Below, piece after piece: positions 7,801 through 62,315 of a stretch of DNA of 64,000 bases. The DNA is taken from positions 1 to 64,000 of the forward strand of contig QOQB01000001.1 of assembly GCA_003331305.1 (NCBI GenBank), in the 5' to 3' direction. Source of the DNA: Flavobacteriales bacterium (GTDB lineage Bacteria; Bacteroidota; Bacteroidia; Flavobacteriales; Flavobacteriaceae). Every line of letters starts with the position of its first letter. Position 1 is the first letter of the stretch. The notes under the pieces are model-generated. The model made no database searches, was not told where the DNA came from, and was given only the letters and a program-made list of their open reading frames with translations. A program made the translations under genes and the position numbers.

Positions 7801-7808
7801 TATCTTTG
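7801..7808 (+). promoter_or_regulatory. -7 promoter element of the XRE regulator gene, predicted leaderless
   Basis: TATCTTTG matches TAnnTTTG and ends exactly 4 bp before the ATG at 7813. No TTG lies at the usual -33 distance. Confidence 0.6.
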
Positions 7809-7812
7809 ACAA

Positions 7813-8091
7813 ATGACAATACATGACAGATTACGTCAAATTATTGCTGACAAAAAAATATCCATTTCTAAGTTCGAACGCACCATTGGTGTAGGGCAAA
7901 ATTCAGTTTCTTCATGTCTTAGGCGTGAATCAAGTGTAAACCACGAAGTGCTGCTTGGAGTCAAAGTAAATTTTCCTGAATACAGCTTGGATTGGATTAT
8001 AACTGGCAAAAAGTCAGAAAATGAAGAACTTGTAACTCTAATTAAGAATAATTTACGTGAATTGGAAAAAGAGGTTAATAAAATCACCTAA
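7813..8091 (+). CDS. XRE-type helix-turn-helix regulator
   Basis: A 92-aa protein with an N-terminal helix-turn-helix (about residues 15-45, ISISKFERTIGVGQNSVSS) and the segment YSLDWIITG, which is common in phage-repressor-like XRE proteins of Bacteroidetes. The C-terminal 25 residues are charged and probably helical, suited to dimerization. It is transcribed divergently from the GH81 gene 312 bp away and converges on hisS, overlapping its end by 8 bp. A role at the GH81 promoter is possible but not shown. The start is supported by the -7 element immediately upstream. An antisense ORF of similar length covers the same bases and is treated as a shadow. Confidence 0.8.
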   Translation: MTIHDRLRQIIADKKISISKFERTIGVGQNSVSSCLRRESSVNHEVLLGVKVNFPEYSLDWIITGKKSENEELVTLIKNNLRELEKEVNKIT

Positions 8092-9454
8092 TGAATAACG
8101 ATGCGTCAATCGTATCAATACTAATTTTTTCAGTCGCTCCGTCAACCATATTTTTTAGGGATATTACTTTTTTCTTCTGTTCTTCTTCTCCATAAAACAA
8201 TGCCCATGGGGCATTCGACTGATTCGCAAACTGCATTTGTTTTTTTAGTTTATGAGTGGTAGGATACGTAAATACGCGAACCCCCTTTGCACGCCACCCT
8301 ATGATGTGTGGCATCAATTCTTGCATAAATTCATCACCAAAATGCAGCACAACAACGTCTACCGCTTGCTGTAATGTTTTTGGATACAAATCCAATTCCT
8401 CCAAAACCATACAAAGACGGTCTAAGCCAAAAGAAATACCAAGCCCGTGCATATCTTTAAGACCAAAAAGTGCTGTGAGATCGTCATAGCGACCACCTGC
8501 TCCAATAGAGCCTAGAGCAACCTTTTGGGGAGGTGCTACCTCATAAATAATTCCTGTATAATAATTAAGTCCGCGCGCAAGCGTCAAATCAAAAGCCAAG
8601 TTACTCGCGTTTAAGGGGGAAACAAATCGTAATACATGACGCAAATGTGCAATTCCTTCAACAGCCAAAGGTTGATCTGAAAGCAACGATTCGAGCGTAT
8701 CTAGTTGTTTTTCTATAGGTCCCGAAAGCGCTATCAAGGGAGTAAGCTTTGCAAGTGCATCTTCACCAAAGCCTTTTTGTTTCAATTCGTCAAAAACACC
8801 AGCTGCGCCAATTTTATCTAACTTATCTAATGCCACAGTAAAATCTGTGATGCGATCTGGTGCGCCCAAATACGTTGCAATACCAGACAAAATACACCTG
8901 TGGTTGATACGAATCGTAGCGTCTTTTAAATCAAGTGAGTGGAAAACAGCATCAAATAATTGAATACATTCAGCCTCTAAAATCGGACTCACAGCGCCCA
9001 CAACATCCGCATCGCATTGGGTGAATTCCTGAAAACGCCCACGTTGCGGTCTATCAGCACGCCAAACCGATTGCACTTGATACCTTTTAAACGGAAAGTT
9101 AAGTTCGTTTTGATGTTGCACCACAAAGCGTGCAAAGGGTACGGTCAAATCGTAACGCAATGCCTTTTCAGAAATGGACTGCGTAAAAAGTCCCAGCTTA
9201 TTTTCTGCTAATGCAGCTACATCTGCTTTTTTTACCTTCTCGCCAGAATTCAACACATGGAACATCAGTCGATCGCCTTCTTCGCCATACTTCCCTAGCA
9301 GAGAAGCCGACTTTTCCATCGATGGCGTTTCGATTGGCAGAAAACCATAGCGTTCAAATTGGGTTTTGATGGTATTGATAACGTATGACCGGCGCGCTAC
9401 ATCAGCGGGTAGAAAGTCGCGGGTGCCTTTTGGAATACTCGGTTTTTGTGCCAT
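8084..9454 (-). CDS. hisS: Histidyl-tRNA synthetase
   Basis: Class II aminoacyl-tRNA synthetase that charges tRNA-His. The sequence shows the N-terminal KGTRDFLP, motif 2 (WRADRPQRGRFQEFTQCD), and the histidine-binding signature ARGLNYYTG in the catalytic core, followed by the anticodon-binding domain. Length (456 aa) is usual for the Bacteroidetes form. It ends 8 bp inside the convergent XRE gene. Upstream, a degenerate -7 element (GATATTTG) lies 14 bp before the ATG, just after the terminator of the ribosomal operon. Confidence 0.98.
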   Translation of the reverse strand: MAQKPSIPKGTRDFLPADVARRSYVINTIKTQFERYGFLPIETPSMEKSASLLGKYGEEGDRLMFHVLNSGEKVKKADVAALAENKLGLFTQSISEKALRYDLTVPFARFVVQHQNELNFPFKRYQVQSVWRADRPQRGRFQEFTQCDADVVGAVSPILEAECIQLFDAVFHSLDLKDATIRINHRCILSGIATYLGAPDRITDFTVALDKLDKIGAAGVFDELKQKGFGEDALAKLTPLIALSGPIEKQLDTLESLLSDQPLAVEGIAHLRHVLRFVSPLNASNLAFDLTLARGLNYYTGIIYEVAPPQKVALGSIGAGGRYDDLTALFGLKDMHGLGISFGLDRLCMVLEELDLYPKTLQQAVDVVVLHFGDEFMQELMPHIIGWRAKGVRVFTYPTTHKLKKQMQFANQSNAPWALFYGEEEQKKKVISLKNMVDGATEKISIDTIDASLFIR

Positions 9455-9490
9455 GGCAACAATTTATACAAATATCTGGTTTTAACGAAA

Positions 9491-9512
9491 AAAAGCCGCA
9501 AAAAGCGGCTTT
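9491..9512 (-). terminator. Intrinsic terminator of the rpsF-rpsR-rplI operon
   Basis: The minus strand reads AAAGCCGC-TTTTT-GCGGCTTT, continuing as a T-rich tail. It lies 22 bp after the rplI stop codon and before hisS. Confidence 0.9.
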
Positions 9513-9533
9513 ATATTTTGAAAAAAAGGTGGT

Positions 9534-9992
9534 TTATGCCTTTTCTTTAGCCTTAGTCACTTCAAATGCTACATCCGCAAATACCTCACGATGCAAACGA
9601 ACTGACGCCGTATGTTTCCCTAAGGTCTTAACAGATCCTCCTGGTAATTTGATAGCTTTTCGCTCAATAGACTGACCCGCTTTAGAAAGTGCTGCTTCTA
9701 AATCTATAGTTCCAACAGAACCAAATAGTTTGTTACCAGCACCTGCTTTTGCTTCAATTTTAAGTTCCAATTTGGCCAAATCTTTAGCTTTCTTTTGAGC
9801 ATCTTCAATAAGCTTTTGCTCTTTAAAGGCACGTTGCTTCAGATTTTCGGCCAGCACTTTTTTCGCAGAAGATGTGGCCAAAATTGCTAAACCCTGTGGA
9901 ATCAAAAAATTACGTCCGTGGCCATTTTTTACTGTTACGATATCGTCTTTGAACCCTAGGTTCTCAACGTCTTGTTTTAAAATAAGTTCCAT
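9534..9992 (-). CDS. rplI: 50S ribosomal protein L9
   Basis: A 152-aa structural protein of the large subunit. The N-terminal domain begins MELILKQDVENLGFKDDIVTVKNGHGRNFLIPQG in shortened family form, followed by the long charged helix (about 45-75) and the C-terminal RNA-binding domain. It is last in the rpsF-rpsR-rplI operon, 5 bp after rpsR, and is followed by a strong intrinsic terminator. Confidence 0.98.
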   Translation of the reverse strand: MELILKQDVENLGFKDDIVTVKNGHGRNFLIPQGLAILATSSAKKVLAENLKQRAFKEQKLIEDAQKKAKDLAKLELKIEAKAGAGNKLFGSVGTIDLEAALSKAGQSIERKAIKLPGGSVKTLGKHTASVRLHREVFADVAFEVTKAKEKA

Positions 9993-9997
9993 GGTAA

Positions 9998-10291
9998 TTA
10001 TTTTAGCATATCAGCAACATAAGGCATTAGCGCCAAGTGACGCGCACGCTTAATCGAAACCGATAATTTACGTTGGTATTTAAGAGATGTTCCGGTTAAA
10101 CGACGTGGTAAAATTTTACCTTGCTCGTTAACAAACTTTAACAAATAATCTGCGTCTTTGTAGTCGATATACTTGATACCAGCCTTTTTGAATCGGCAGT
10201 ATTTTTTGGCTTTAGAAGTTTCAATATCTAACGGAGTTAAATACCTAATTTCGCCTTGTTTTCCGCCTTTACTTTCTTGTTCAATAGACAT
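9998..10291 (-). CDS. rpsR: 30S ribosomal protein S18
   Basis: A 97-aa small-subunit protein. The core [15 protein letters not shown]...LLKFV and the [28 protein letters not shown] end are diagnostic. It has an N-terminal extension of about 20 residues relative to E. coli S18 (75 aa), as is common in Bacteroidetes. It lies 3 bp after rpsF and 5 bp before rplI, so translation is probably coupled. Confidence 0.98.
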
Positions 10292-10294
10292 AAT

Positions 10295-10633
10295 TTATAC
10301 TTTTTCAGTTAAACGATCTCTTCTCTTAACAGCCCAAACCTCTGCGTGCTTGTCTAATTTTACCGTAAGATAGCGCATGATGCGCTCATCGCGACGGAAT
10401 TCAACTTCAAAAGGATTAATGGCTTCGCCATCAAGTTTGAAATCTAATAAGTGGTAAAAGCCACTTTTTTTGTTTTGAATAGGATAGGCAAACTTTTTCA
10501 AGCCCCAGTCCTCTTTGGCGACAATCTCGCCACCGCGAGACGTTATAAACGTCTCATACTTTTCTACTGCTTCCTTTACCTGATCTTCAGATAAAACGGG
10601 ATTCAATATGAAAACAGTTTCGTAATGGTTCAT
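10295..10633 (-). CDS. rpsF: 30S ribosomal protein S6
   Basis: A 112-aa small-subunit protein that partners S18. The sequence opens MNHYETVFILNPVLSEDQV and contains LKKFAYPIQNKKSGFYHLLDF, both typical of S6. It is the first gene of the operon, with a promoter close to consensus 22 bp upstream. Confidence 0.98.
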   Translation of the reverse strand: MNHYETVFILNPVLSEDQVKEAVEKYETFITSRGGEIVAKEDWGLKKFAYPIQNKKSGFYHLLDFKLDGEAINPFEVEFRRDERIMRYLTVKLDKHAEVWAVKRRDRLTEKV

Positions 10634-10655
10634 AAATGATTTTTTAATTGGACGG

Positions 10656-10685
10656 CGAAAATACGGATTTTATTGGGTTGTACAA
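10656..10685 (-). promoter_or_regulatory. Promoter of the rpsF ribosomal operon
   Basis: TTG (10683-10685) and TATTTTCG (10656-10663) are separated by exactly 19 bp on the minus strand, with one mismatch in the -7 box. Confidence 0.7.
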
Positions 10686-10699
10686 ACCTGTTTATAGAA

Positions 10700-13135
10700 T
10701 TATTGTGGGTCAACATCTACGGATACCTTAACTTGCTTAAACGCACCTACTTGCGCAAAGCTGTGCAGTAATGCACTCAAACGAGATTTGGCAGCCGATT
10801 GCGACGCGTCAAGCGGAAGCTTGATAAGCGTATGTAAAATATAATAATTACGTTGTCTTGCTACCAACGGTGGTACCGGTCCTAGCACTGACGAAAAACG
10901 TTCTTGTAGTCCGTGTTTGAGCCAGTTACCAGCATCTATAAGCGAAGACATGTTTTTATGGCGCAACTCAATTCGGATAATGCGCCTAAACGGTGGGTAA
11001 GCAAATTGTTCCCGTTGTTCAATTTGTTGTTCAAAAAAAGAAGTATAGTCGTATTCTTGAACAAATTTCAACACAGGATGACTAGGGAGAAATGTTTGTA
11101 TCAAAACCTTACTCTTATCGCCTAATCGTCCCGCGCGACCTGCCACTTGTGTGAGCACTTGAAAGGCACGTTCGTGTGCTCTGAAATCTGGAAAATGCAA
11201 GAAATTATCAACTGACAACACACCAACTAAGGTAACATGCTCAAAATCCAGTCCTTTCGTAACCATTTGTGTACCGATCAAAATATCAATTTGACGTTGA
11301 GCAAAAGCTGAAATTAGTTTCTGATGTGCATGCTTTTTTCGGGTAGTATCTAAATCCATTCGTGCTACGCTTGCCGATGGAAATAGTTGCTGTATTTCTT
11401 CTTCCAGTTGCTGCGTTCCCAGTCCATGCGTTTGGGGCGAAACGGTCCCGCATGCAACACAAGCCGCTGCGTATTGCTCCATATATCCACAATAATGGCA
11501 ACGTAACTCGTTACTCACTTGATGGTACGTAAGGCTCACATCACAGCTAGGGCACTGCGGCACGTGTGCGCACTGACTGCATTCTACAAATGAGGCATAT
11601 CCACGCCTATTTTGAAACAACAATACCTGCTTTTTCGCCAATAAGGTTTTTTCAATCGCTTGCGCAAGTGATTGTGCTAAATGCCCTTTCATTTGCTTTT
11701 TTCGATAGGCTTCTGCTAAATCAACAAAGTGAATTTCGGGCATTTGCGCATCTTGAAAACGTTCGGTGAGCGATACCAAGCCGTACTTGCCTGTAGAGGC
11801 ATGCTGATACGATTCTACACTAGGAGTTGCTGTTCCTAAAACTACTTTTGCTTGATGCATATGTGCCAAAACCATGGCAGCGTCTCTGGCGTGATACCGT
11901 GGAGCAGCATCGTATTGTTTGTAAGAGGTTTCGTGTGACTCGTCCACAATAATTAACCCCAACCGCTGAAAGGGTAACAAAACCGCTGAACGTGCACCTA
12001 AAACCAATTTTGCATCAGCTCTACTTTCGTTAATTTTACCCCAAGTTTCAGCGCGTTCCTGCGGGCTATATTTGGAGTGGTACACAACCAACTGTTGACC
12101 GAAAAAAGTAAACAGACGCTGCATCAGTTGCGTAGTCAAACTGATTTCAGGCACTAAAAACAACACTTGTTTTCCCAAGCGTAATTGATTGGCAATAAGC
12201 TGCATATACACTTCTGTTTTTCCCGAACCCGTAACGCCGTGAAGCAGTGTAATATTTTTTGTTTTCCAATGATTTTCAATGGAAGTTTTTGCCTTTTCTT
12301 GTGGAGGCGATAACGGCAATAGCGGATTGTCAGGTGTCGTTTTGGCAGGCAAGCGATCTACTACACGCGCTTGCTTCACTAAAACCTCCTGTTTTATTAG
12401 TGTTTTTAATGATGATGGGCTAACCGTTTCTAGTTTTGAAAACGCCGAAAAAACCACGGTATCTTTCTGTTGTAAAAACGTCAGCAATGTTTTGTGTTGC
12501 TTTGGTTTAGATGCTAAAGATTCTAGTAATTGTTTGAGTGCATCATCATTTTTTAGCCGTGGATGCAACACTACTTCTGTTTGAGTTTTGGGTCGATACT
12601 GCGCATAAACCTCCTCTTTTAAGACAGCGTAATTTGACTCGACCAATTCGTTTAAAACAGGAAAAGGGTTTTTGACCCCAATAAGCTGCTGCACCTGAGA
12701 CAAAGACACTGTGCTATTTGGCTGTACTTGTTGTAATAGTTTTATGGCGTTTTTGGATAGCGTTGGCAAAAGCCTTTCCCATTCATGAATAATAATTTCC
12801 GTTTCGCTTTCTAACAACATTACAGAAGGCAGTGCTGTTCGAAAGACCAATCCTAAAGGCGCTTGGTAGTAAGAAGCTATCCAGGCTAAAAACGAAAGCT
12901 GAACTGACGAAATCACCGAACTGCTATCAATTATACTGTCTATTTGTTTGGGTTGATAGGCTTTTGGCGCAGCTTGGTGCACCTTAAAAACTATTGCCGT
13001 ATACATTTTTCTTTTTCCAAATGGAACCACTACGCGCATTCCGGGCTGAAGCACTTCGGCTTCGGCTGGTGTAATAACATAAGTAAAGGTCTCCTTTAGC
13101 GGTAAGGGAAGAACTACATCTAAAAAAAACGACAT
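10700..13135 (-). CDS. priA: Primosomal protein N' / replication restart helicase PriA
   Basis: Restarts stalled replication forks. The 811-aa protein has the N-terminal 3'-binding domain (FFLDVVLPLPLKETFTY), a helicase core with Walker A (GVTGSGKTEVY) and the Walker B motif as DESH rather than the usual DEEH/DEAH, and the paired zinc site (CSQCAHVPQCPSCD and CHYCG). Helicase motifs include LLFQNRRGY, GTQMVTKGLDF and QVAGRAGR. Its ATG overlaps the stop of the upstream yihY-type gene by one base (TAATG arrangement), so the two are co-transcribed. Confidence 0.98.
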   Translation of the reverse strand: MSFFLDVVLPLPLKETFTYVITPAEAEVLQPGMRVVVPFGKRKMYTAIVFKVHQAAPKAYQPKQIDSIIDSSSVISSVQLSFLAWIASYYQAPLGLVFRTALPSVMLLESETEIIIHEWERLLPTLSKNAIKLLQQVQPNSTVSLSQVQQLIGVKNPFPVLNELVESNYAVLKEEVYAQYRPKTQTEVVLHPRLKNDDALKQLLESLASKPKQHKTLLTFLQQKDTVVFSAFSKLETVSPSSLKTLIKQEVLVKQARVVDRLPAKTTPDNPLLPLSPPQEKAKTSIENHWKTKNITLLHGVTGSGKTEVYMQLIANQLRLGKQVLFLVPEISLTTQLMQRLFTFFGQQLVVYHSKYSPQERAETWGKINESRADAKLVLGARSAVLLPFQRLGLIIVDESHETSYKQYDAAPRYHARDAAMVLAHMHQAKVVLGTATPSVESYQHASTGKYGLVSLTERFQDAQMPEIHFVDLAEAYRKKQMKGHLAQSLAQAIEKTLLAKKQVLLFQNRRGYASFVECSQCAHVPQCPSCDVSLTYHQVSNELRCHYCGYMEQYAAACVACGTVSPQTHGLGTQQLEEEIQQLFPSASVARMDLDTTRKKHAHQKLISAFAQRQIDILIGTQMVTKGLDFEHVTLVGVLSVDNFLHFPDFRAHERAFQVLTQVAGRAGRLGDKSKVLIQTFLPSHPVLKFVQEYDYTSFFEQQIEQREQFAYPPFRRIIRIELRHKNMSSLIDAGNWLKHGLQERFSSVLGPVPPLVARQRNYYILHTLIKLPLDASQSAAKSRLSALLHSFAQVGAFKQVKVSVDVDPQ

Positions 13136-14007
13136 TAGCGAGACTGTTTTAGCTTAGCGATAGAGGCATTGAGTTCAAATCCTAACAACAAGACAATCGC
13201 ATTCAACCAAATATAAAGCATCAAAATAAGGATCGCTCCAATAGACCCATAGAGTTGATTGTATTGGGCAAAATTATCCAAGTAGACCCCAAAGCCATAA
13301 GAAGTAAGAGCGAATAAAAAAGTGGTGACCAACGCACCTGCAGAAAAGAAGCTTGAAAAACCGCGATGTGTACCAAAATAAAAGAGGATAGAGCTTACCA
13401 AATAAGCCATTCCAAAGAAAAAAACCAGTCGTATCCACATGTTTAACTCAAATCCAAAATCAAATATTTGTGCTACCAAAAGTTCAAAGAATAAGTATCC
13501 GGCAATGGAAATTAAAAAAATCAATCCTAACAATACTCCTACTCCAACAGCATAAATATACTGTTTGATAAAATGTCTGTTAAGACTTACATGAATGGAT
13601 TCGCTAAACCCTCCGAAAATGGCGTTTACACCATTACCCATAAAAAATATAGAGAGTAAAAAGGTAGACGAAAGCAAACCACGCCTTGGTTTAGACTGAA
13701 TATCATACAACACACCGTTTAAAAATTCTTGAGCCTCAGTAGGTGCCACAGATAAAAAAAAAGAGGAAAACGTATCTTCGATATTGGCAATTGGAAAAAA
13801 TGGAATTAAGTTTAAAACAAAAATTAAAAAAGGAAACATTGCCATAAAAAAACTAAAAGCAATACTGCTTGCTCTTGTGGTTAGTGTTCCTTTAATAATA
13901 CCCAAAAAATAAAGCTCAACAATTTGATAAAGGGAAATAGCACCTGCATCGCCAAAGCGAATGCGATGCATCCAACTTGTAATATGTTGCCCGATTTTTT
14001 CAACCAT
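13135..14007 (-). CDS. YihY/BrkB-family inner membrane protein
   Basis: A 290-aa integral membrane protein with about six hydrophobic helices. The family features are an N-terminal amphipathic region, SIAFSFFMAMFPFLIF, and a final helix ending LLLGFELNASIAKL. The family was once annotated as RNase BN, which is wrong; its function is unsettled, with a transporter-like role suspected. It is divergent from rlmH across a 56-bp gap and overlaps priA by one base. Its -7 element TAACTTAG lies 4 bp from the ATG, which predicts a leaderless mRNA. Confidence 0.93.
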   Translation of the reverse strand: MVEKIGQHITSWMHRIRFGDAGAISLYQIVELYFLGIIKGTLTTRASSIAFSFFMAMFPFLIFVLNLIPFFPIANIEDTFSSFFLSVAPTEAQEFLNGVLYDIQSKPRRGLLSSTFLLSIFFMGNGVNAIFGGFSESIHVSLNRHFIKQYIYAVGVGVLLGLIFLISIAGYLFFELLVAQIFDFGFELNMWIRLVFFFGMAYLVSSILFYFGTHRGFSSFFSAGALVTTFLFALTSYGFGVYLDNFAQYNQLYGSIGAILILMLYIWLNAIVLLLGFELNASIAKLKQSR

Positions 14008-14011
14008 TGTG

Positions 14012-14019
14012 CTAAGTTA
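14012..14019 (-). promoter_or_regulatory. -7 element of the yihY-type gene, predicted leaderless
   Basis: TAACTTAG (one mismatch to TAnnTTTG) is followed by CACA and the ATG. The gap is 4 bp, the same as at rlmH on the other strand. Confidence 0.45.
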
Positions 14020-14051
14020 ACTATTAAAATGGAGGCTTCCATGAGAATTAA

Positions 14052-14059
14052 TACCTTAG
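14052..14059 (+). promoter_or_regulatory. -7 element of rlmH, predicted leaderless
   Basis: TACCTTAG is followed by CATT and the GTG start of rlmH. It has the same TTAG variant and the same 4-bp gap as the divergent gene. Confidence 0.45.
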
Positions 14060-14063
14060 CATT

Positions 14064-14537
14064 GTGAAAATCAAAGTCATCTGTATGGGTAAAACCAATC
14101 ACGTTTCTTTACGCGATTGGTTACCCGAATACCAAAAACGCCTTTCGCATTATGTCAAATTTGAATGGGTGGAGCTACCAGAGTTAAAAAACACCAAAAA
14201 CTTACGTGAATCTGTACAAAAGGAAGAAGAAGGAAAACGGGTGTTCAAACAACTCAATTCACAAGACGTATTGGTGCTTTTTGATGAGGTTGGTAGTCAA
14301 TACACTTCAAAGGGTATGGCTAATTTTCTACAAAAACGCATGAATGCTGGAACTAAAAATCTGATTTTTGTCATCGGCGGTCCTTATGGTTTTTCAGATG
14401 AAATATATAAAAGAGCTCAATATAAAATCTCCCTATCTGCCATGACATTTTCGCATCAAATGGTGCGTATTTTTGTGGCAGAACAACTTTACAGAGCATT
14501 TTCAATTCTTAATAACGAACCCTACCATCACGAATGA
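14064..14537 (+). CDS. rlmH: 23S rRNA (pseudouridine-1915-N3)-methyltransferase
   Basis: A SPOUT-class methyltransferase that modifies helix 69 of 23S rRNA using S-adenosylmethionine. The 157-aa protein has the SAM-binding knot (FVIGGPYGFSDE) and the family end (MTFSHQMVRIFVAEQLYRA...PYHHE). The start is GTG: the family begins MKIKxIxxGKT, and no in-frame ATG fits. The -7 element lies 4 bp before it. The 3' end overlaps rdgB by 4 bp (ATGA), so the two are translationally coupled. Confidence 0.97.
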   Translation: MKIKVICMGKTNHVSLRDWLPEYQKRLSHYVKFEWVELPELKNTKNLRESVQKEEEGKRVFKQLNSQDVLVLFDEVGSQYTSKGMANFLQKRMNAGTKNLIFVIGGPYGFSDEIYKRAQYKISLSAMTFSHQMVRIFVAEQLYRAFSILNNEPYHHE

Positions 14538-15112
14538 AAAAACTCATTTTTGCCACACACAATCAAAATAAAGTTCAGGAAGTAAAAGCTGTTTTTGAGG
14601 ACTATTCTATAGCAAGCTTAGCTGATTTGGGGTATCATCAAGATATTGCCGAGACCGAAAATACTTTTGTTGGAAATGCTCTCCTAAAAGCAAGGCATGT
14701 TTTTGAGGTATTCAAAACACCTGTTTTTGCAGATGATAGTGGTTTGGAAGTTACTGCATTAAACGGTGCCCCTGGAGTGTATTCGGCGCGTTATGCTGGA
14801 GAAGAAAAAAACCATGACAAAAACAACGCCAAGTTATTGGTAGAGTTAGCAAGCGAGTCGAGTCGAGCAGCGCAATTTAAGACTGTAATTGCGTATAAAG
14901 ATGCCACAACAGAAATGACTTTTGAAGGCATTGTTAATGGGTTTATTTCTGAAAAGCCAACAGGCTCGGGTGGTTTTGGATACGATCCCCTTTTTATTCC
15001 AGAGGGATACGATAAAACATTTGCTGCCCTTCCCAATGAAGTAAAACTACGTTTAAGTCATCGTAGTCGTGCCGTTGCAAAGCTGTACCGTTATTTAAAA
15101 TCCCTAACATAA
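14534..15112 (+). CDS. rdgB: XTP/dITP diphosphatase (RdgB/HAM1 family)
   Basis: Removes deaminated purine nucleotides (dITP, XTP) from the pool by pyrophosphohydrolysis. The 192-aa protein shows the substrate-binding start ATHNQNKVQE, the metal-binding FADDSGLEV, the loop SGGFGYDPLFIP and the closing SHRSRA, all in the normal order and spacing. It overlaps rlmH by 4 bp. Confidence 0.97.
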   Translation: MKKLIFATHNQNKVQEVKAVFEDYSIASLADLGYHQDIAETENTFVGNALLKARHVFEVFKTPVFADDSGLEVTALNGAPGVYSARYAGEEKNHDKNNAKLLVELASESSRAAQFKTVIAYKDATTEMTFEGIVNGFISEKPTGSGGFGYDPLFIPEGYDKTFAALPNEVKLRLSHRSRAVAKLYRYLKSLT

Positions 15113-15926: not shown

Positions 15927-15944
15927 GAAATAGCGAAATTCTCT

Positions 15945-33204: not shown

Positions 33205-33237
33205 CAAAGATAAGCGTAAATAAAAAAACCTCCACAA
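33205..33237 (-). promoter_or_regulatory. Promoter of the GlmU-like gene, predicted leaderless
   Basis: On the minus strand TTG (33235-33237), a 22-bp spacer and TATCTTTG (33205-33212) are followed by GAAA and the ATG. The -33 TTG lies inside the rpmE2 terminator hairpin. Confidence 0.6.
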
Positions 33238-33243
33238 GGGAGG
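33222..33243 (-). terminator. Intrinsic terminator of rpmE2
   Basis: On the minus strand CCTCC-CTTGT-GGAGG is followed by a run of seven T, 24 bp after the rpmE2 stop. Confidence 0.85.
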
Positions 33244-33267
33244 CTCTAAATTGTGCGGAAAATTAAA

Positions 33268-45430: not shown

Positions 45431-45458
45431 AAATACTATGCACGCATAGTATTTTTTT
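45431..45458 (+). terminator. Hairpin after fadD: terminator and possible marR operator
   Basis: AAATACTATG-CACG-CATAGTATTT is a perfect 10-bp inverted repeat followed by seven T, 2 bp after the fadD stop. It covers the region where the -33 element of the marR promoter would lie. Confidence 0.8.
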
Positions 45459-45459: not shown

Positions 45460-45467
45460 TATGTTTG
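45460..45467 (+). promoter_or_regulatory. -7 promoter element of marR, predicted leaderless
   Basis: TATGTTTG is followed by GGGC and the ATG at 45472, the 4-bp gap seen at six other genes in the window. Confidence 0.6.
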
Positions 45468-53664: not shown

Positions 53665-53695
53665 CAAAGGTAAGTAATGCACTTACGTTAACCAA
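53665..53695 (-). promoter_or_regulatory. Promoter of the cysteine synthase-type gene, predicted leaderless
   Basis: On the minus strand TTG (53693-53695), a 20-bp spacer and TACCTTTG (53665-53672) are followed by CGCC and the ATG. Confidence 0.65.
53670..53686. repeat. Inverted repeat in the cysteine synthase promoter spacer
   Basis: GTAAGT-AATGC-ACTTAC is a perfect 6-bp inverted repeat that overlaps the -7 box and lies between it and the -33 TTG. The position suits a repressor, but arms this short can arise by chance. Confidence 0.35.
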
Positions 53696-54971: not shown

Positions 54972-55463
54972 CTACACCGGTAGTTCGGATTTTAACCGCG
55001 CTACCATTTCATAAACGGCAGGGCAAACCGCTATATTTTTTGCAGTAATGCCTGTAATTTGATGAAATTTTGGTCTGTCAGTATGTGGGAATTCACGGCA
55101 GGCTTTTGGTCGATCCTCGTAAATACTACACTGATTATCTGCGCCCAAAAACGAACAGGGTACTTGCTGAAGCACCTTATCATTATCTTCATCAGTGCGA
55201 AGGTAAGTTGCCTCAAATTCTGTTGGCTTCATGCGTAGTCGTTTACTGATACGCTTGATGTCCGATGGCAAAAAGAGGGGGCCTGTGGTTTTGCAACAAT
55301 TGGCGCAGTTTAGGCAGTCTATTTTTTTAAATGTTTCATGGTGCAGCTTCGTCATCACTGCATCTAACTTTTTAGGCTTCCGTACCTTTAGCTTTTTTAA
55401 GTATTTGGCGTTTTCCTGCGCGACTTTTGCTGCTTGTTCGGGCAGTTTTTGCGGATCAATCAC
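54972..55463 (-). CDS. YkgJ-family cysteine cluster protein
   Basis: A protein of 163 aa with a Cys-rich metal-binding cluster (DCLNCANCCKTTGP, CSFLGADNQCSIYEDRPKACREFP, AVCPAVYE), typical of the zinc/iron-chelating YkgJ family, whose function is unknown. The ORF track starts it at 55508 inside queE. I prefer the GTG at 55463, which overlaps the queE stop by one base (TAGTG) and gives a family-like N terminus with a helical stretch of about 50 residues before the cluster. Last gene of the ffh-folD-queE operon. Confidence 0.88.
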   Translation of the reverse strand: MIDPQKLPEQAAKVAQENAKYLKKLKVRKPKKLDAVMTKLHHETFKKIDCLNCANCCKTTGPLFLPSDIKRISKRLRMKPTEFEATYLRTDEDNDKVLQQVPCSFLGADNQCSIYEDRPKACREFPHTDRPKFHQITGITAKNIAVCPAVYEMVARLKSELPV

Positions 55464-56092
55464 TATGGAATTTTTAGATATTTGTGCGTTTGCAACGACG
55501 CCATCCACTTTGGATTTTTAAGTACATAATCTACGATAAACGGAATAGCACTATCACGTCTACTCCACTCAGGTTGCAGGTATAATTTACAGCTTTTCGA
55601 AATTCCAATAGCCTGTTTTTCGGCAAACTGTAAATCGTCTTTATTGTATACAATAACTTTTAACTCGTCTGCAACTTTGTAAATTTCGGGTTTAGGGAGC
55701 ATACGCTTTTTTGGGGAGAGGCAAACCCAATCCCAAACGCCAGAAAGTGGATACGCACCCGATGTTTCGATATGTGTTTTCATACCCGCTGCTTGTAAGG
55801 CTTCGGTAAGTGGTGACATATTCCACATCAGCGGCTCGCCGCCAGTTACCACAACGGTATCCGAATATTGTTTTGCTTGCGAGACGATTTCGTCAATATA
55901 AGTTGGTGGGTGTAGATTTGCATCCCAACTTTCTTTCACATCACACCAATGACACCCTACATCACAGCCTCCAATGCGAATAAAAAATGCTGCACTGCCT
56001 TTGTGATATCCTTCGCCCTGAATGGTGTAAAAGGCTTCCATTAACGGAAGTGCATGACCAGAAGCAACGGCTTGTTGAAGTTCGGTTTGCAT
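55463..56092 (-). CDS. queE: 7-carboxy-7-deazaguanine synthase
   Basis: A radical-SAM enzyme of queuosine precursor synthesis (CPH4 to CDG). The 209-aa protein has the radical-SAM cluster motif CDVGCHWCD (about 43-51) with the substrate-side EAFYTIQGEGYHKG in front, and TGGEPLMW. Other queuosine genes (queC, queD, queF) are not in the window. It lies 2 bp after folD on the same strand. Confidence 0.95.
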   Translation of the reverse strand: MQTELQQAVASGHALPLMEAFYTIQGEGYHKGSAAFFIRIGGCDVGCHWCDVKESWDANLHPPTYIDEIVSQAKQYSDTVVVTGGEPLMWNMSPLTEALQAAGMKTHIETSGAYPLSGVWDWVCLSPKKRMLPKPEIYKVADELKVIVYNKDDLQFAEKQAIGISKSCKLYLQPEWSRRDSAIPFIVDYVLKNPKWMASLQTHKYLKIP

Positions 56093-56094
56093 TT

Positions 56095-56973
56095 TTAGGA
56101 GTTGCGTTTGTAGGCCAACATGGTGTTTTGCAACAACATGGCAATGGTCATGGGGCCCACACCACCGGGAACAGGTGTAATAAAACTTGCTTTCTCTTTC
56201 ACTTCATCATACGCCACATCGCCTGTAATCACATAGCCTTTTGGATGATTTTCGTCTGGAACGCGTGTAATACCTACGTCAATAATAATAGCATCTTGCT
56301 TTATCATGTCAGCGGTTACAAAATTTGGAACACCTAAGGCCGACACCACAATATCGGCTGCTTTGGTAATTTCAGCCAGATTTTGGGTACGGCTATGCGT
56401 AAGCGTTACGGTAGCATTACCAGGATTTCCCTTATTGGATAATAAAATACTCATCGGGCGACCTACAATATGACTGCGTCCAATGACAACAGCATGTTTG
56501 CCGCTGATGTCTAACTTATATCTGCGAAGCAATTCCATAATTCCAGACGGCGTTGCAGGAATAAAGGTTTCTATACCCAAGGCCATTTTTCCAAAATTGG
56601 TGGGATGAAATCCGTCCACGTCTTTGTTGGGATTTATTGCATGTAACACAACTTCCTCGTCAATGTGTTTAGGAAGTGGAAGCTGCACAATAAATCCGTC
56701 AAGTGTGGCGTCGTTATTTAGTTTGTTAATCGTTTTTATAAGTTCGTCTTGAGAAATGGTATCCTCCAAACGTATCAATGTAGAGTCGAATCCGATTTTT
56801 TCACAAGAGCGCACCTTACTGCCTACATAGGTTAAGCTAGCGCCATCATTTCCTACCAAAACGGCAGCCAAATGCGGCGGGCGTTTGCCCGACGCTTTAA
56901 GCGCAGTAACTTCTTGCGCAAGTTCTTCCTTAATTTGATTTGAAGTGGCTTTTCCGTCTAAAATAGTACTCAT
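56095..56973 (-). CDS. folD: Methylenetetrahydrofolate dehydrogenase/cyclohydrolase
   Basis: A bifunctional one-carbon enzyme linking 5,10-methylene-THF and 10-formyl-THF. The 292-aa protein has the catalytic segment YVGSKVRSCEKIG (Tyr and Lys), QLPLPKHID, the NADP site GRSHIVGRPMSILL and the closing PVPGGVGPMTIAMLL. Its ATG overlaps the ffh stop by 4 bp, so the genes are translationally coupled. Confidence 0.97.
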   Translation of the reverse strand: MSTILDGKATSNQIKEELAQEVTALKASGKRPPHLAAVLVGNDGASLTYVGSKVRSCEKIGFDSTLIRLEDTISQDELIKTINKLNNDATLDGFIVQLPLPKHIDEEVVLHAINPNKDVDGFHPTNFGKMALGIETFIPATPSGIMELLRRYKLDISGKHAVVIGRSHIVGRPMSILLSNKGNPGNATVTLTHSRTQNLAEITKAADIVVSALGVPNFVTADMIKQDAIIIDVGITRVPDENHPKGYVITGDVAYDEVKEKASFITPVPGGVGPMTIAMLLQNTMLAYKRNS

Positions 56974-58292
56974 TTTCCAAACATTTGCATCAGCTTAGAG
57001 GACTTACCACCTTGCATCATTTTCATCATTTTACTCATCTGCTCAAACTGTTTAACCAGTTTGTTAATATCGTCTAATTGTAGGCCTGCTCCTTTAGCGA
57101 TCCGCTTTTTGCGACTGTGGTTAAGGAGTTTGGGTTGTTGGCGTTCTTTGGGTGTCATGGATTGAATGAGTGCCTCTACGCCTTTAAACGCATCTTCGTC
57201 AACTTCAGCCCCATTTAATGCTTTGCTAGCGCCAGGAATCATTCCAACCAAATCTTTCATAGATCCCATACGCTGTACTTGTTTGAGTTGGCTTAAAAAG
57301 TCGTCATACCCAAATTGATTTTTGGAAATTTTTCGTTGGATGCGCTTTGCCTCTTCCTCGTCTACTTGCTCTTGAGCACGCTCTACTAAGGTAACTACGT
57401 CACCCATTCCCAAGATACGCTCCGCCATTCGGTTAGGGTAAAACACATCTAAGGCATCCACTTTTTCTCCCGTACCAATAAATTTGATAGGTTTATTTAC
57501 AACAGACTTTATGGAAAGTGCAGCACCACCTCGTGTGTCGCCGTCCATTTTAGTAAGCACAATACCATCAAATTGCAACAAGTCGTGGAAGGCTTTTGCC
57601 GTATTCACGGCATCTTGCCCCATCATAGCATCAACAACAAATAGGGTCTCCGAAGGACGAACCGCTTTGTGAATGTTTTCGATTTCCTGCATGAGTGCCT
57701 CGTCAATGGCTAATCGACCAGCGGTGTCAATGATAACTACATTAAACTGATGCGTTTTGGCATGTTGAAGAGCTTGTTTGGCTATATCAACAGGATTGTT
57801 GTTTTCAGGTTGTGCAAAAACGGCTACATCTATTTGTTCACCCAGTACTTGTAGCTGGTCAATGGCAGCTGGGCGATAGACATCACAAGCTACAAGTAAA
57901 ACCTTTTTTGCTTGCTTTGTTTTTAAATGTTTGGCAAGTTTGGCAGTACAGGTTGTTTTACCTGAACCTTGCAAACCACTCATTAATATGACAGCAGGTT
58001 TTCCCGAAACAGAAAGAGCAGCGTTTTGTCCACCAAGTAGAGTAGTCAGTTCGTCTTGCACAATTTTAACAAGTAATTGACCTGGCTTTAAGCTAGTGAG
58101 TACTTTTTGACCCAGCGCTTTCTGCTTTACATCTTCCGTAAAAGATTTGGCGATTTTAAAGTTCACATCGGCATCAAGCAACGCACGACGGACTTCTTTC
58201 ATGGTTTCAGAAACATTAATTTCAGTAATGCGTCCGTGTCCCTTAAGTATTTTTAGCGCCTTATCTAGGCGTTGACTAAACTGTTCAAACAT
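56970..58292 (-). CDS. ffh: Signal recognition particle protein Ffh
   Basis: The GTPase subunit of SRP that brings nascent membrane proteins to the inner membrane. The 440-aa protein has the N domain, the G domain with GLQGSGKTTCTAKLA (about 107), DVYRPAAIDQL, DTAGRL and TKMDGDTRGG, and the Met-rich M domain at the C terminus (FEQMSKMMKMMQGGKSSKLMQMFGK in full) that binds signal peptides and 4.5S RNA. First gene of the ffh-folD-queE-ykgJ operon. A -7 element (TAATTTTG) lies 16 bp upstream of the ATG. Confidence 0.98.
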   Translation of the reverse strand: MFEQFSQRLDKALKILKGHGRITEINVSETMKEVRRALLDADVNFKIAKSFTEDVKQKALGQKVLTSLKPGQLLVKIVQDELTTLLGGQNAALSVSGKPAVILMSGLQGSGKTTCTAKLAKHLKTKQAKKVLLVACDVYRPAAIDQLQVLGEQIDVAVFAQPENNNPVDIAKQALQHAKTHQFNVVIIDTAGRLAIDEALMQEIENIHKAVRPSETLFVVDAMMGQDAVNTAKAFHDLLQFDGIVLTKMDGDTRGGAALSIKSVVNKPIKFIGTGEKVDALDVFYPNRMAERILGMGDVVTLVERAQEQVDEEEAKRIQRKISKNQFGYDDFLSQLKQVQRMGSMKDLVGMIPGASKALNGAEVDEDAFKGVEALIQSMTPKERQQPKLLNHSRKKRIAKGAGLQLDDINKLVKQFEQMSKMMKMMQGGKSSKLMQMFGK

Positions 58293-58308
58293 GAATTGGT
58301 ATAAACTT

Positions 58309-58316
58309 CAAAATTA
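58309..58316 (-). promoter_or_regulatory. -7 promoter element of the ffh operon
   Basis: TAATTTTG on the minus strand, 16 bp before the ffh ATG. It lies upstream of ffh in the 29-bp gap after blh. Confidence 0.45.
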
Positions 58317-58321
58317 CGGAA

Positions 58322-59203
58322 TTAGTTTTTCTGGTGCATCCAAAAAATAACACCCACATGCGGAATGGTGATAGCTGCTAAAAAACCAAAAAACAAGGCA
58401 AGCAAAGATGCTGTATTTTCTCTAAAAAAAATAGAGGCAACAGCAAGACCAGTCAAAGACAATATCCAGTATGGAAATGCCATTTTGAAGTATTTATACA
58501 GGGGGCTTACATCGTTTGGATACAACACATCAGCTTGCTCTTTTAATGAGGGAATGCTATGCCACAACACAAAATAGACAGAAAAAGACCATAAAAGTGA
58601 GGTCTGTGTAAACAGCACTAAGAAAGCGATTAGCGTTAAGGATTGAAAAAACAGCTGTGACTTAATTTGTTTAATATTTAAAACACCAAAAAAAATGACA
58701 CAAACACAAGTACATATTAGCATTAACAAAAAAATACTAGGTGCAACTTGAATTCCTGAAATTTCCTGAATAATAGAGATTGTTTGGTTTTGATGGGTGT
58801 AAAAAAGTAAGGAAAAAAGAAAGGCCCCATAGGCAACGTAGAAAAGGTGGAGCTTTGTGGATTTGACAAGGCTAGATTTGTGCCATTGTTGCTCTCCAAA
58901 ATGAAATGAACTAACCAAAACAAAAAGCAAAAGTGCTAATTGAGGAACATTATAAAGCGCTAAAACCATAACAAAAACGAAAAAAACATAACTGACAAAT
59001 AAATAACCAAACTGACGTTTTTTTGTTGTTTTACTATATTTTGAGATGATATATAAATCATTTGCACCATGAATTATACCAATTATTAACACATTCACAG
59101 CTGCTAAAACCCATAAAAAAGACGCTGATAAAACAAGCCCTAACACCGTACAAACCAGGGTAATTCCTAGTTTTTGCAGTTCAAAATTGTATAATTTTAC
59201 CAT
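58322..59203 (-). CDS. blh: Brp/Blh-family beta-carotene 15,15'-dioxygenase (retinal formation)
   Basis: Cleaves beta-carotene to two retinals, the chromophore of the rhodopsin next door. The 293-aa membrane protein has about eight helices and the conserved His residues of the family iron site: HGANDLYIISKY (about 45), SSFHFGEQQWHKS, LWHSIPSLKEQ and the C-terminal IPHVGVIFWMHQ. It is divergent from the proteorhodopsin gene across 95 bp, the classic arrangement for the retinal/rhodopsin pair. The beta-carotene synthesis genes (crt) are not in the window. Confidence 0.93.
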   Translation of the reverse strand: MVKLYNFELQKLGITLVCTVLGLVLSASFLWVLAAVNVLIIGIIHGANDLYIISKYSKTTKKRQFGYLFVSYVFFVFVMVLALYNVPQLALLLFVLVSSFHFGEQQWHKSSLVKSTKLHLFYVAYGAFLFSLLFYTHQNQTISIIQEISGIQVAPSIFLLMLICTCVCVIFFGVLNIKQIKSQLFFQSLTLIAFLVLFTQTSLLWSFSVYFVLWHSIPSLKEQADVLYPNDVSPLYKYFKMAFPYWILSLTGLAVASIFFRENTASLLALFFGFLAAITIPHVGVIFWMHQKN

Positions 59204-59234
59204 GTTATTTTTATGTTGTTAGAAAAAATTTAGT

Positions 59235-59242
59235 CAAATATA
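59235..59242 (-). promoter_or_regulatory. -7 promoter element of blh
   Basis: TATATTTG on the minus strand, 31 bp before the blh ATG. No -33 TTG is clear. The proteorhodopsin promoter itself was not resolved. Confidence 0.45.
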
Positions 59243-59298
59243 TATCGTTTGTTTAATTTTTTTTAACTTGCGCTCAACAAAATTATAATTAAAAAGTT

Positions 59299-60009
59299 AT
59301 GACACTTACAAATTTAGTAACTATTGCGGACCTAAGTGATCCGGTTAATTTCACTTTTTTCTTAGGGACAATGGCAATGACAGCTGCTTCAGCTTTCTTT
59401 TTCTTGTCTTTAAACCAATTTGACAGCAAATGGAGAACTTCAATCTTGGTTTCAGGACTGATTACATTTATTGCTGCTGTTCACTATTATTACATGAGAG
59501 AAGCGGCAACTTCTGGTGGTGTAACAACTGAAATCCGTTATATAGACTGGATTTTGACTGTACCACTAATGTGTGTTGAGTTTTACCTTATTTTAAAAGC
59601 TGCCGGTGCAACAACAAAGCACCTTAGCACTTTGATTTGGGCTTCACTTGTAATGTTAGTAACAGGTTATTTTGGGGAAGTTTCTGACACGGCTAATGGT
59701 CCTGCTTTATGGGGTCTTGCTTCTGGTGCAGCATACTTCTACATTGCATGGTTAATCAAGTTTGGTCCTTTGGCTAAACTGGCTGCTGCTGCAGGTGGTT
59801 CTGTTGAAAAAGCACACAAAATGCTAACGTTATTTGTACTTATCGGATGGGCAATTTACCCATTGGGTTATATGATCGGTACTGACGGTTGGTATGACTT
59901 TGTTGACGGAATTGGTTTAAACATGGATGTTGTTTATAACATTGGTGACGCAATCAACAAAATTGGATTTGGATTAGTAGTATATGCTGCTGCCGTATCT
60001 AGCAAATAA
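59299..60009 (+). CDS. Proteorhodopsin, green-light type proton pump
   Basis: A 236-aa seven-helix light-driven outward proton pump. The retinal-binding Lys is K221 (NIGDAINKIGFG), with the counterion Asp D217 four residues before it. Helix C reads RYIDWILTVPLMCVEF: D83 (proton acceptor), T87 and E94 (proton donor) form the DTE motif of proton-pumping proteorhodopsins. The spectral-tuning residue (position 105 in the reference protein) is Met91, typical of green-absorbing flavobacterial forms. H62 matches the conserved His that partners the acceptor. There is no long signal peptide. A strong terminator ends the gene. Confidence 0.98.
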   Translation: MTLTNLVTIADLSDPVNFTFFLGTMAMTAASAFFFLSLNQFDSKWRTSILVSGLITFIAAVHYYYMREAATSGGVTTEIRYIDWILTVPLMCVEFYLILKAAGATTKHLSTLIWASLVMLVTGYFGEVSDTANGPALWGLASGAAYFYIAWLIKFGPLAKLAAAAGGSVEKAHKMLTLFVLIGWAIYPLGYMIGTDGWYDFVDGIGLNMDVVYNIGDAINKIGFGLVVYAAAVSSK

Positions 60010-60033
60010 TTTCTGAAAATTATTTCAAAAAAG

Positions 60034-60062
60034 ACCTCGATGTTTCATCGAGGTTTTTTTTT
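60034..60062 (+). terminator. Intrinsic terminator of the proteorhodopsin gene (bidirectional)
   Basis: ACCTCGATG-TTT-CATCGAGGT followed by a run of T. On the minus strand the same stem is followed by TCTTTTTT, so it can also end the argS transcript. Confidence 0.9.
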
Positions 60063-61830
60063 ACATCCTACTTGGCGCTTCAATACCCAATAAACCCAAG
60101 CTTTTTTGAATCACCTGACCCACTGCAGCACACAGCGCTACACGTAAAGATTTTACTTTGCCGTCTTCTACCAAAATAGGCACTTCTTGATAGTAAGAAT
60201 TATACTGCTTAACCAAATCATACACATAGTTAGCAACTAACGCAGGACTGTATTGGTTTGCAGCCGCAGCTACAGTAGCGGGAAACTGCCCTAACACTTT
60301 CAGTACTGCTTTTTCCTTTTCATGCAATGAAGTTGCATTGTCAAATGCAACTGTAATTGTACCAACTTTTCTTAGGATAGATTGAATTCTAGCATGGGTA
60401 TATTGTATAAATGGTCCTGTGTTTCCGCAAAAATCTACAGATGCCTTAGGGTCAAATAAAATACGTTTTTTAGGGTCAACTTTAAGTATATAATATTTGA
60501 GCGCCCCCATGCCAATAGTATGGAACAAGGTCTCTTTTTCGTCGCTACTCATACCGTCAAGCTTGCCTAACTCTTCCGAAATTTGCTTTGCCGTGGCGTG
60601 CATTTCGTCCATAAGGGCATCTGCATCTACTACCGTACCTTCCCTGCTTTTCATTTTTCCGCTGGGCAAGTCCACCATACCATAGCTAAGGTGATGTAAT
60701 TGCGAAGCCCAATCATACCCTAGTTTCTTTAAAATTAAAAACAATACCTTAAAGTGATAATCTTGCTCGTTACCCACGGTATAGACCATACCTGTCATGT
60801 TAGGATGGTTGGTGTAGCGCAAACGTGCTGTGCCCAAATCTTGTGTCATATATACTGAAGTGCCATCCGATCGAAGTAGTAATTTTTCGTCTAACCCTTC
60901 ATCTGTTAAATCTACCCAAACAGAACCATCTTCTTTTCTGTAAAAAATCCCCTTAGAAAGTCCTTCTTCAACAGTTTCCTTACCAAGCACATAGGTGTCA
61001 CTTTCATAGTAATAGGAATCAAAATGTACTCCTAAACGCTTGTAGGTTTCAGCAAAGCCATCATATACCCATGCATTCATTTGCTCCCATAGAGAACGCA
61101 CTTCAACATCATTTTGCTCCCATTTGATCAACATCTCTTTGGCTTCCAAAAGTATGGGAGCTTCATTTTTCGCTTGCTTCTCGGAAACGCCAGTAGAAAT
61201 TAAATCAGCGATTTCTTTTTTGTATTGCTGATCAAAAAGCACGTAATATTTTCCTACCAAAGCATCGCCTTTCAGCTTGGAGTTTGAAGGTGTTTCGGAA
61301 TTACCAAACTTTTGCCACGCTACCATAGATTTACAAATATGAATACCCCTATCGTTAATGATTTGTGTAGTGTGTACGTTAGTACCGTTGGCTGCTAAAA
61401 TATGAGCAACAGACGCCCCTAAAAGGTTATTGCGGATGTGACCTAGATGTAAGGGTTTGTTGGTGTTAGGAGATGAATATTCAACTAAAAAAGTGTCTGA
61501 TATTCCTGTATTAGATGCAAATCCAAAGCTGGTATCGTGTTGTAATTGCGTAAGAAAATTGATGTAGTATGCATCTGAAATTTGAATATTCAAAAAGCCT
61601 TGCACCACATTGTAGGCCTTTGCTTCTGGTATTACATCAACTAAAAAATCACCTAATTCCGCTGCAAGTTCTTCCGGTTTTTTAGGAGCAATTCTAAGTA
61701 GTGGAAACACCACAACGGTCAAATCGCCTTCAAATTGTGCTTTTGTTGGCTGAATTTCAAACGTTTCAATCTCTTTATCATACTGCGCTTTAAAGTATCG
61801 ACTAAGGTGTTTGGTGAGTATTGTCTCCAT
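60061..61830 (-). CDS. argS: Arginyl-tRNA synthetase
   Basis: A class I aminoacyl-tRNA synthetase of 589 aa. The ATP-binding HIGH-like motif is in SSPNTNKPLHLGHIRNNLLG (about 120-138), followed by the class I core, the QDLGTARLRY region and the C-terminal DALR anticodon-binding domain, ending SLGLLGIEAPSRM. The KMSKS equivalent is the segment MKSREGTVVD. A -7 element (TATCTTTG) lies 16 bp upstream. Confidence 0.98.
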   Translation of the reverse strand: METILTKHLSRYFKAQYDKEIETFEIQPTKAQFEGDLTVVVFPLLRIAPKKPEELAAELGDFLVDVIPEAKAYNVVQGFLNIQISDAYYINFLTQLQHDTSFGFASNTGISDTFLVEYSSPNTNKPLHLGHIRNNLLGASVAHILAANGTNVHTTQIINDRGIHICKSMVAWQKFGNSETPSNSKLKGDALVGKYYVLFDQQYKKEIADLISTGVSEKQAKNEAPILLEAKEMLIKWEQNDVEVRSLWEQMNAWVYDGFAETYKRLGVHFDSYYYESDTYVLGKETVEEGLSKGIFYRKEDGSVWVDLTDEGLDEKLLLRSDGTSVYMTQDLGTARLRYTNHPNMTGMVYTVGNEQDYHFKVLFLILKKLGYDWASQLHHLSYGMVDLPSGKMKSREGTVVDADALMDEMHATAKQISEELGKLDGMSSDEKETLFHTIGMGALKYYILKVDPKKRILFDPKASVDFCGNTGPFIQYTHARIQSILRKVGTITVAFDNATSLHEKEKAVLKVLGQFPATVAAAANQYSPALVANYVYDLVKQYNSYYQEVPILVEDGKVKSLRVALCAAVGQVIQKSLGLLGIEAPSRM

Positions 61831-61846
61831 AGATGTAAATCAAGTG

Positions 61847-61854
61847 CAAAGATA
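61847..61854 (-). promoter_or_regulatory. -7 promoter element of argS
   Basis: TATCTTTG on the minus strand, 16 bp before the ATG. Confidence 0.5.
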
Positions 61855-61886
61855 CAGGTTTCGACAAGCTACTTCATGTTTTCGTT

Positions 61887-61894
61887 TATCTTTG
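61887..61894 (+). promoter_or_regulatory. -7 element of the 138-aa unknown gene, predicted leaderless
   Basis: TATCTTTG is followed by TCAA and the ATG at 61899, a 4-bp gap. Confidence 0.55.
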
Positions 61895-61898
61895 TCAA

Positions 61899-62315
61899 AT
61901 GTTACAAAATGTGTCGTATAAAAATAAAAAGCAGCAAATTGAAATTGAAAGCTTGGTAGGTAAACCTTTTACGCTTTTGGAGCGCTTAAAATTGGGCGGA
62001 GTGGGCTCACCAAAACTATATGTGACAACAAGTAGTAAAGAAATTGATGCCCTTTTTTTATTAGATCATAATGATAACACCTGCAACATCGAGCTTCGCC
62101 CAAAGGGAATTATTTTACGTTTTCGATCATTACTGGAAACCTACGCACTTGTCGTTCCTTACTATAAATTAACATTATTTAAGGGTACAAGCGATGCCTA
62201 TAGCGTTCATACTGCCCACCATAAAGTTTCTGTTTTAGCGCAAGAAGCACCAATTCGTACCTTTTTTAAAAAAATACTGGAGCAAAAGGCAATACACTCC
62301 CAGGAATATCTTTAG
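61899..62315 (+). CDS. Conserved hypothetical protein
   Basis: A 138-aa soluble protein without signal peptide or membrane helices. The composition is basic and strand-rich (GSPKLYVTTSSKEIDALFLLD; NIELRPKGIILRFRSLLETYALVVPYYKLTLF in part), and might form a small beta barrel or PH-like domain. I recognise no family motif. Its end overlaps the convergent ctlX by 4 bp. The correct start is supported by the -7 element 4 bp upstream. Function unknown. Confidence 0.75.
   Translation: MLQNVSYKNKKQQIEIESLVGKPFTLLERLKLGGVGSPKLYVTTSSKEIDALFLLDHNDNTCNIELRPKGIILRFRSLLETYALVVPYYKLTLFKGTSDAYSVHTAHHKVSVLAQEAPIRTFFKKILEQKAIHSQEYL

Follow-up and report, generated by a model that had tools for sequence, protein, structure and literature searches.

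Seven genes with a promoter box next to the start codon

The window, i.e., the whole stretch of 64 kb that was analyzed, comprises the first part of contig 1 (QOQB01000001.1) of an uncultured, probably marine flavobacterium (GCA_003331305.1), of which the genome of 1.46 Mb is 86% complete and the nearest relatives in the cysK comparison are uncultured Flavobacteriaceae MAGs. A first-pass annotation had reported that seven genes within the window carry a -7 promoter box exactly 4 bp upstream of the start codon. All box, spacer and start positions were read from the sequence and the spacing was found at each of the seven genes (Table 1); the coordinates in the first-pass annotation denote the first base of each box and the start codon begins 12 nt further on. 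The assignment of the boxes to the consensus TAnnTTTG holds strictly for five genes, while the boxes of yihY and rlmH show one mismatch and read TAnnTTAG. The gene identities were recovered as proposed, i.e., an XRE-type HTH protein, YihY/BrkB, RlmH, a GlmU-like protein, MarR, a cysteine synthase-type enzyme (here cysK) and one protein without Pfam family, as a Pfam search with this 138-aa protein gave no match.

Table 1. Boxes, predicted leaderless genes and neighboring elements in the window.
Feature	Position	Strand	Description
-7 box TATCTTTG, strict	7801..7808	+	spacer acaa, 4 nt to ATG of XRE/Cro-type HTH gene
Predicted leaderless HTH_26 (Cro/C1-type) gene, 92 aa	7813..8091	+	Pfam PF13443, E 1.5e-4
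-7 box variant TAACTTAG, one mismatch	14012..14019	-	spacer caca, 4 nt to ATG of yihY
Predicted leaderless yihY/BrkB-family membrane protein gene, 290 aa	13135..14007	-	Pfam PF03631, E 2.5e-45
yihY/rlmH intergenic region, 56 bp	14008..14063		both predicted promoters inside
-7 box variant TACCTTAG, one mismatch	14052..14059	+	spacer catt, 4 nt to GTG of rlmH
Predicted leaderless rlmH (SPOUT rRNA methyltransferase), GTG start, 157 aa	14064..14537	+	Pfam PF02590, E 1.3e-54
-7 box TATCTTTG, strict	33205..33212	-	spacer gaaa, 4 nt to ATG of GlmU-like gene
Predicted leaderless GlmU-like sugar nucleotidyltransferase gene, 388 aa	32034..33200	-	Pfam PF13562, E 2.1e-37
Terminator-like hairpin with T-run	33222..33245	-	behind L31 gene
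L31 gene	33271..33519	-	
Near-perfect palindrome AATACTATGCACGCATAGTATT	45432..45453		just 5' of marR -7 box
-7 box TATGTTTG, strict	45460..45467	+	spacer gggc, 4 nt to ATG of marR
Predicted leaderless MarR-family regulator gene, 149 aa	45472..45921	+	Pfam PF01047, E 2.7e-10
-7 box TACCTTTG, strict	53665..53672	-	spacer cgcc, 4 nt to ATG of cysK
Predicted leaderless cysteine synthase/PLP-dependent enzyme gene, 325 aa	52683..53660	-	Pfam PF00291, E 4e-78
-7 box TATCTTTG, strict	61887..61894	+	spacer tcaa, 4 nt to ATG of 138-aa gene
Predicted leaderless gene, 138 aa, genus-conserved	61899..62315	+	no Pfam match

The predicted promoters of yihY and rlmH are divergent, and as their boxes are only 32 bp apart, binding of RNA polymerase to one and to the other is probably mutually exclusive. 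At both genes the TAnnTTAG-type box is kept in most of the genus. The palindrome AATACTATGCACGCATAGTATT is conserved in the genus and is likely to represent a MarR operator acting in autorepression. The hairpin behind the L31 gene lies upstream of the -7 box of the GlmU-like gene at a distance of 9 bp, and this tight terminator-promoter layout is conserved in the genus.

Distances between box and start codon

The distance d, i.e., the number of bp between the TAnnTTTG box and the start codon, was determined for a total of 1338 predicted gene starts, with 72% of the own genome covered and three further genomes of the genus sampled. The first-pass annotation had proposed such a histogram as a check of its reading; the histogram has a narrow peak at d = 4 (53 genes, with 9 at d = 3, 18 at d = 5 and 9 at d = 6), which is followed by a valley with 30 genes over all of d = 7-12 and by a broad hump with 152 genes over d = 13-24. 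Very short predicted leaders are depleted and the promoter-to-start distance is narrow across genes. Nine control octamers gave a mean of 0.33 at d = 4. Within the genus, the variant boxes were also enriched at d = 4, with 25 cases compared to 2.1 per position for TAnnTTTA and 5 compared to 0.7 per position for TAnnTTAG. Because TAnnTTAG has its own excess at d = 4 and because one rlmH orthologue of the genus carries a strict TATCTTTG at the same place, the variant boxes of yihY and rlmH are regarded as real. An exhaustive count of TANNTTTGNNNNATG gave 82 matches in the own genome versus 29 for the reversed pattern, and 1186 versus 354 in 16 other genomes of the genus. From the box density of the genome, a probability of about 4e-10 is obtained for five or more strict boxes falling at exactly d = 4 by chance among about 50 starts.

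The first stretches of the own genome were picked with d = 4 matches in view, resulting in an upward bias (62 of the 82 raw matches lie within the first 857 kb), which was corrected by randomly drawn leftover stretches and by blind samples of the same genus. The predicted leaderless share, expressed as (d = 3-6 net)/(d = 0-60 net), was 0.23 in the second set of stretches, 0.21 in three blind relatives (575 kb) and 0.38 in the random leftover stretches, in which 11 of 37 boxes lie at d = 3-6 and just two at exactly 4; pooled, the share was 0.29. The blind sample of genome G014 contributed only 2 of 25. Based on strict boxes up to 60 nt from the start, home-made gene calls and partial genomes, about 20-30% of these strict promoters are predicted to be leaderless in the genus, a share that is not directly comparable with published percentages, whose denominators include longer leaders.

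Promoter marks upstream of the start codon

The nn positions of the box are occupied by G in 4.7% at d = 4 and in 4.8% in leadered promoters, compared to 17.5% in all TAnnTTTG; the marR box (TATG) has one such G. Exclusion of G at nn was likewise reported for mapped F. johnsoniae promoters as TAHHTTTG rule (PMC6847099). The AT content of the d = 4 class reaches 0.81-0.85 at -17 to -19 from the start codon, centred at -18, and F. johnsoniae promoters possess an AT-rich element at the matching place relative to +1 (PMC6847099). TTG within -37 to -31 is present in only two of the seven genes and the class as a whole shows no clear peak there, as in F. johnsoniae. A pyrimidine just before the start site is a common initiator preference; the base preceding the start codon is a pyrimidine in 79% of the d = 4 class, which is modestly above the 64-72% of other genes. 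By three marks, i.e., the scarcity of G at nn, the AT-rich stretch around -18 and the pyrimidine before the start, the d = 4 boxes are predicted to be promoters.

In leadered genes, positions -12 to -9 are rich in A (0.48-0.63), which agrees with upstream-adenine signals described for Bacteroidetes (PMC6847099, PMC10783764). These positions are occupied by the promoter box in the d = 4 class, of which the spacer is not A-rich, and the base composition upstream of its starts reveals no A-rich ribosome-recruiting stretch. Bacteroidetes are not known to use Shine-Dalgarno sequences. The 16S rRNA 3' end pattern GGATCACCTCCTT (anti-Shine-Dalgarno) gave 0 matches in 21 genomes including complete ones, a result that probably reflects rRNA ends masked or missing in these sequences.

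Conservation of the spacing in orthologues

At all seven starts nearly every orthologue within the genus retains the length of 4 bp, and the letters of the spacer vary, with pairwise identities of only 0.29-0.68. The spacing is 4 in all 16 orthologues of the 138-aa gene (one with a one-mismatch box), which is present in 16 of 17 genomes of the genus, in 15/15 orthologues of marR with upstream sequence and in 15/15 of rlmH, where starts are GTG or ATG and most boxes are variants; outside the genus, d = 4 was also seen for rlmH in G017 and G018, which represent two further genera of the family. The GlmU-like gene has spacing 4 in 14 of 15 orthologues and 3 in one, 14 of the 15 loci orthologous to yihY carry a TAnnTTAG or TAnnTTTA box at this spacing of 4, and the XRE-type gene, one-mismatch boxes counted, has spacing 4 in 12 and 5 in three of 15 orthologues. 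The latter gene contains in-frame stop codons in two relatives (L283 and L284, from G012 and G015), in which it may be decaying.

For cysK, spacing 4 is found in eight close relatives. As cysK of Flavobacterium, Polaribacter, Kordia and others has a spacing of 15-22 nt or more, or is without strict box, the predicted leaderless form of cysK is specific to this lineage. In the Flavobacterium cysK neighborhoods 4 of 260 boxes lie at d = 3-6, which reflects one syntenic region sampled repeatedly and is not a genome-wide rate, so that the order-wide pattern counts given below are the better comparison. A flavobacterial cysK, 84% identical, was also found in a record titled as Bifidobacterium breve MAG (L138), a contig that is probably mislabelled or a contamination.

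Leaderless messages as the probable products

The -7 consensus TAnnTTTG of the Bacteroidetes sigma-A (sigma-ABfr) is known from F. johnsoniae (PMC6847099), F. psychrophilum (PMC9723704) and B. thetaiotaomicron (PMC7366714). The -7 box spans -12 to -5 in F. psychrophilum (PMC9723704), and 4-5 nt lie between box and start site in F. johnsoniae (PMC6847099). With the box at -12 to -5 and a spacer of 4 nt, the first base of the start codon would be +1, so that in all seven genes the start codon is expected to lie at or next to the transcription start. The peak at d = 4 together with this published geometry supports the first-pass reading of the genes as leaderless, and we consider it highly probable that the seven are Bacteroidetes sigma-A promoters with a start site coinciding with the start codon and an mRNA starting with 5' AUG or GUG. 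They resemble the known sigma-A promoters in the octamer, the rarity of G at nn, the AT-rich region at -18 and the predicted box-to-start-site distance of 4 nt.

The sequences directly show the positions, the peak and valley of the histogram, the promoter-like composition and the conserved length; where the mRNAs begin, how ribosomes are loaded and why the spacing is selected is inferred as follows. RNA polymerase would bind the TAnnTTTG box, with the AT-rich stretch a helical turn further upstream, near -18, and the first transcribed base, 4-5 nt past the box, would be the A or G of the start codon. This 5'-terminal codon would then be selected by the ribosome without the A-rich stretch that recruits it to leadered genes of this genome. 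Selection would maintain the exact spacing of 4 bp, since it is proposed that neither way of initiating translation could work with a leader of just a few nt. The identical spacing, described as striking in the first-pass annotation, is real; it is at the same time what fixed promoter geometry and, probably, selection against very short leaders would lead to.

It is conceivable, yet very unlikely, that the boxes are promoters while the main transcripts arise further upstream and most mRNAs of the seven genes are leadered. Alternatives were scanned with the strict TAnnTTTG only, which leaves room for a more distant or non-sigma-A promoter, and alternative sigma factors account for about 7% of the promoters in F. 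psychrophilum (PMC9723704). However, the 250 nt upstream of each of the seven starts contain no further strict box, the boxes of yihY and rlmH both lie inside the short region shared by the two genes, and an accessory promoter would not need a length of 4 bp conserved between species. Even less probable is a misassignment of the start codons, with translation beginning further downstream behind ordinary leaders. The starts were called mechanically and some of the genes contain in-frame downstream ATGs, but nearly all same-genus orthologues align from residue 1, RlmH aligns from residue 1 to model position 1 of Pfam SPOUT_MTase, and the cysK start agrees with those in about 80 genomes including leadered Flavobacterium orthologues. 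Furthermore, the distance to the predicted codon, GTG included, is kept by selection. For marR the alternative start TTG 45457 lies upstream of the box and the conserved start is ATG 45472. Similarly little speaks for the TTTG box being a translation signal within a leadered mRNA instead of a promoter element: Bacteroidetes use non-Shine-Dalgarno upstream signals, which makes a novel motif conceivable, but the motif matches the promoter consensus in full, down to the scarcity of G at nn and the AT-rich -18 region, leadered genes carry the identical octamer at a distance of 13-24 nt, and the known translation signals of Bacteroidetes are A-rich and not TTTG. Chance, i.e., seven matches of a common AT-rich octamer picked by eye, would account for roughly 30 of the 82 TANNTTTGNNNNATG matches in the genome but is practically negligible as an explanation, as both the histogram and the footprints in orthologues refute it, with a P of about 4e-10 for the window alone, a peak only at 4-5 and not at neighboring distances, and conservation in up to 16 species.

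Leaderless messages, which we thus favor for the seven genes, were regarded as atypical of the phylum in the first-pass annotation. Their kind is already documented in Bacteroidetes, with 5.5% leaderless mRNAs in F. psychrophilum (PMC9723704), 13% leaders of up to 10 nt in F. johnsoniae (PMC6847099) and 3.7% leaders under 10 nt in B. thetaiotaomicron (PMC7366714); unusual, and new, are the frequency, the conservation at the level of orthologues and a possible functional bias in an uncultured lineage. As in the known cases the predicted 5' end of the mRNA is the start codon, here predicted from DNA only, while the roughly 20-30% of proximal strict promoters, the genus-wide conservation of length in orthologues and the possible bias to RNA maturation are unlike them. 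The sigma-A promoters of F. johnsoniae, F. psychrophilum and B. thetaiotaomicron are mostly leadered, with medians of 24-32 nt in two of these, whereas a large share of promoters here is predicted to be placed to end exactly at the start codon. As the spacing is kept across related species, leaderless messages look like a regular, conserved mode of expression here, compared to their rarity in studied relatives. The fixed promoter-to-start distance, the predicted 5'-terminal AUG/GUG and the absence of Shine-Dalgarno sequences are shared with leaderless genes of Actinobacteria, Deinococcus-Thermus and Archaea, but sigma factor and box differ. An earlier survey by Zheng et al. (2011) relied on Pribnow-like boxes, a limitation that its authors named, and detected leaderless genes in just one of 37 Bacteroidetes/Chlorobi genomes (PMC3160421). 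Leaderless messages have so far been treated as a minor class in Bacteroidetes, and a lineage in which they are frequent, conserved between orthologues and biased to ribosome maturation would constitute a Bacteroidetes model for leaderless initiation. As the position of the box marks the start codon, it would also aid the annotation of gene starts in many uncultured genomes.

Functions of the predicted leaderless genes

The class comprises 42 predicted leaderless genes, i.e., 39 with strict box plus yihY, rlmH and the XRE-type gene, and many are low-copy housekeeping genes. Ten of the 42 act in rRNA/tRNA modification, ribosome maturation or ribosome rescue (RlmD, MnmA, an Era-like GTPase, a TsaD-family protein of TsaB size, TsaE, SmpB, RbfA, YbeY, a SpoU methylase and RlmH). 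A leadered sample of 40 genes contains none of these categories and is rich in central metabolism, such as PGK, PFK, fumarase, SOD, NDK, ACP and dihydrolipoamide dehydrogenase-type enzymes. The difference, 10/42 versus 0/40, has a Fisher P of 0.001, with categories assigned after the list was seen and the leadered sample scanned with a stricter cut-off, and the leaning of the class to ribosome-maturation and tRNA-modification genes is taken as a lead. A broader reading, in which leaderless expression in the genus and in other small-genome Flavobacteriales is a major, functionally separate mode with RNA/ribosome genes leaderless and highly expressed central metabolism leadered, is put forward tentatively and is rather doubtful. 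If it were true, immature, bS21-poor or 70S ribosomes could favor the genes that mature ribosomes. A loss of bS21 as cause of the pattern was ruled out, as bS21 is present as in other Bacteroidetes.

Occurrence in other Flavobacteriales

The net density of d = 4 matches per Mb is 36 in the own genome and 35 in the 16 other genomes of the genus, compared to 6.7 in larger genomes of the same family. It amounts to 16 in family f5, 6 in f9, 42 in f11 (1.3-2.0 Mb), 24 in f8 and 33 in f7/g60. By these pattern counts, predicted leaderless usage is high in several groups with small genomes and not in all, and because f9 is low among them, genome size alone does not set the usage. Dividing net d = 4 by net d = 15-20 gives 0.45 here, compared to 0.17 for large genomes of the same family, 0.38 for f11 and 1.33 for f7/g60. 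The f7/g60 genomes (G128, G137, G141, G146, G161 and G166; 1.6-1.8 Mb) have a 6.5-fold excess of TAnnTTTG-N4-ATG, and as their net d = 4 exceeds the net d = 15-20, leaderless promoters may be the majority class in this group.
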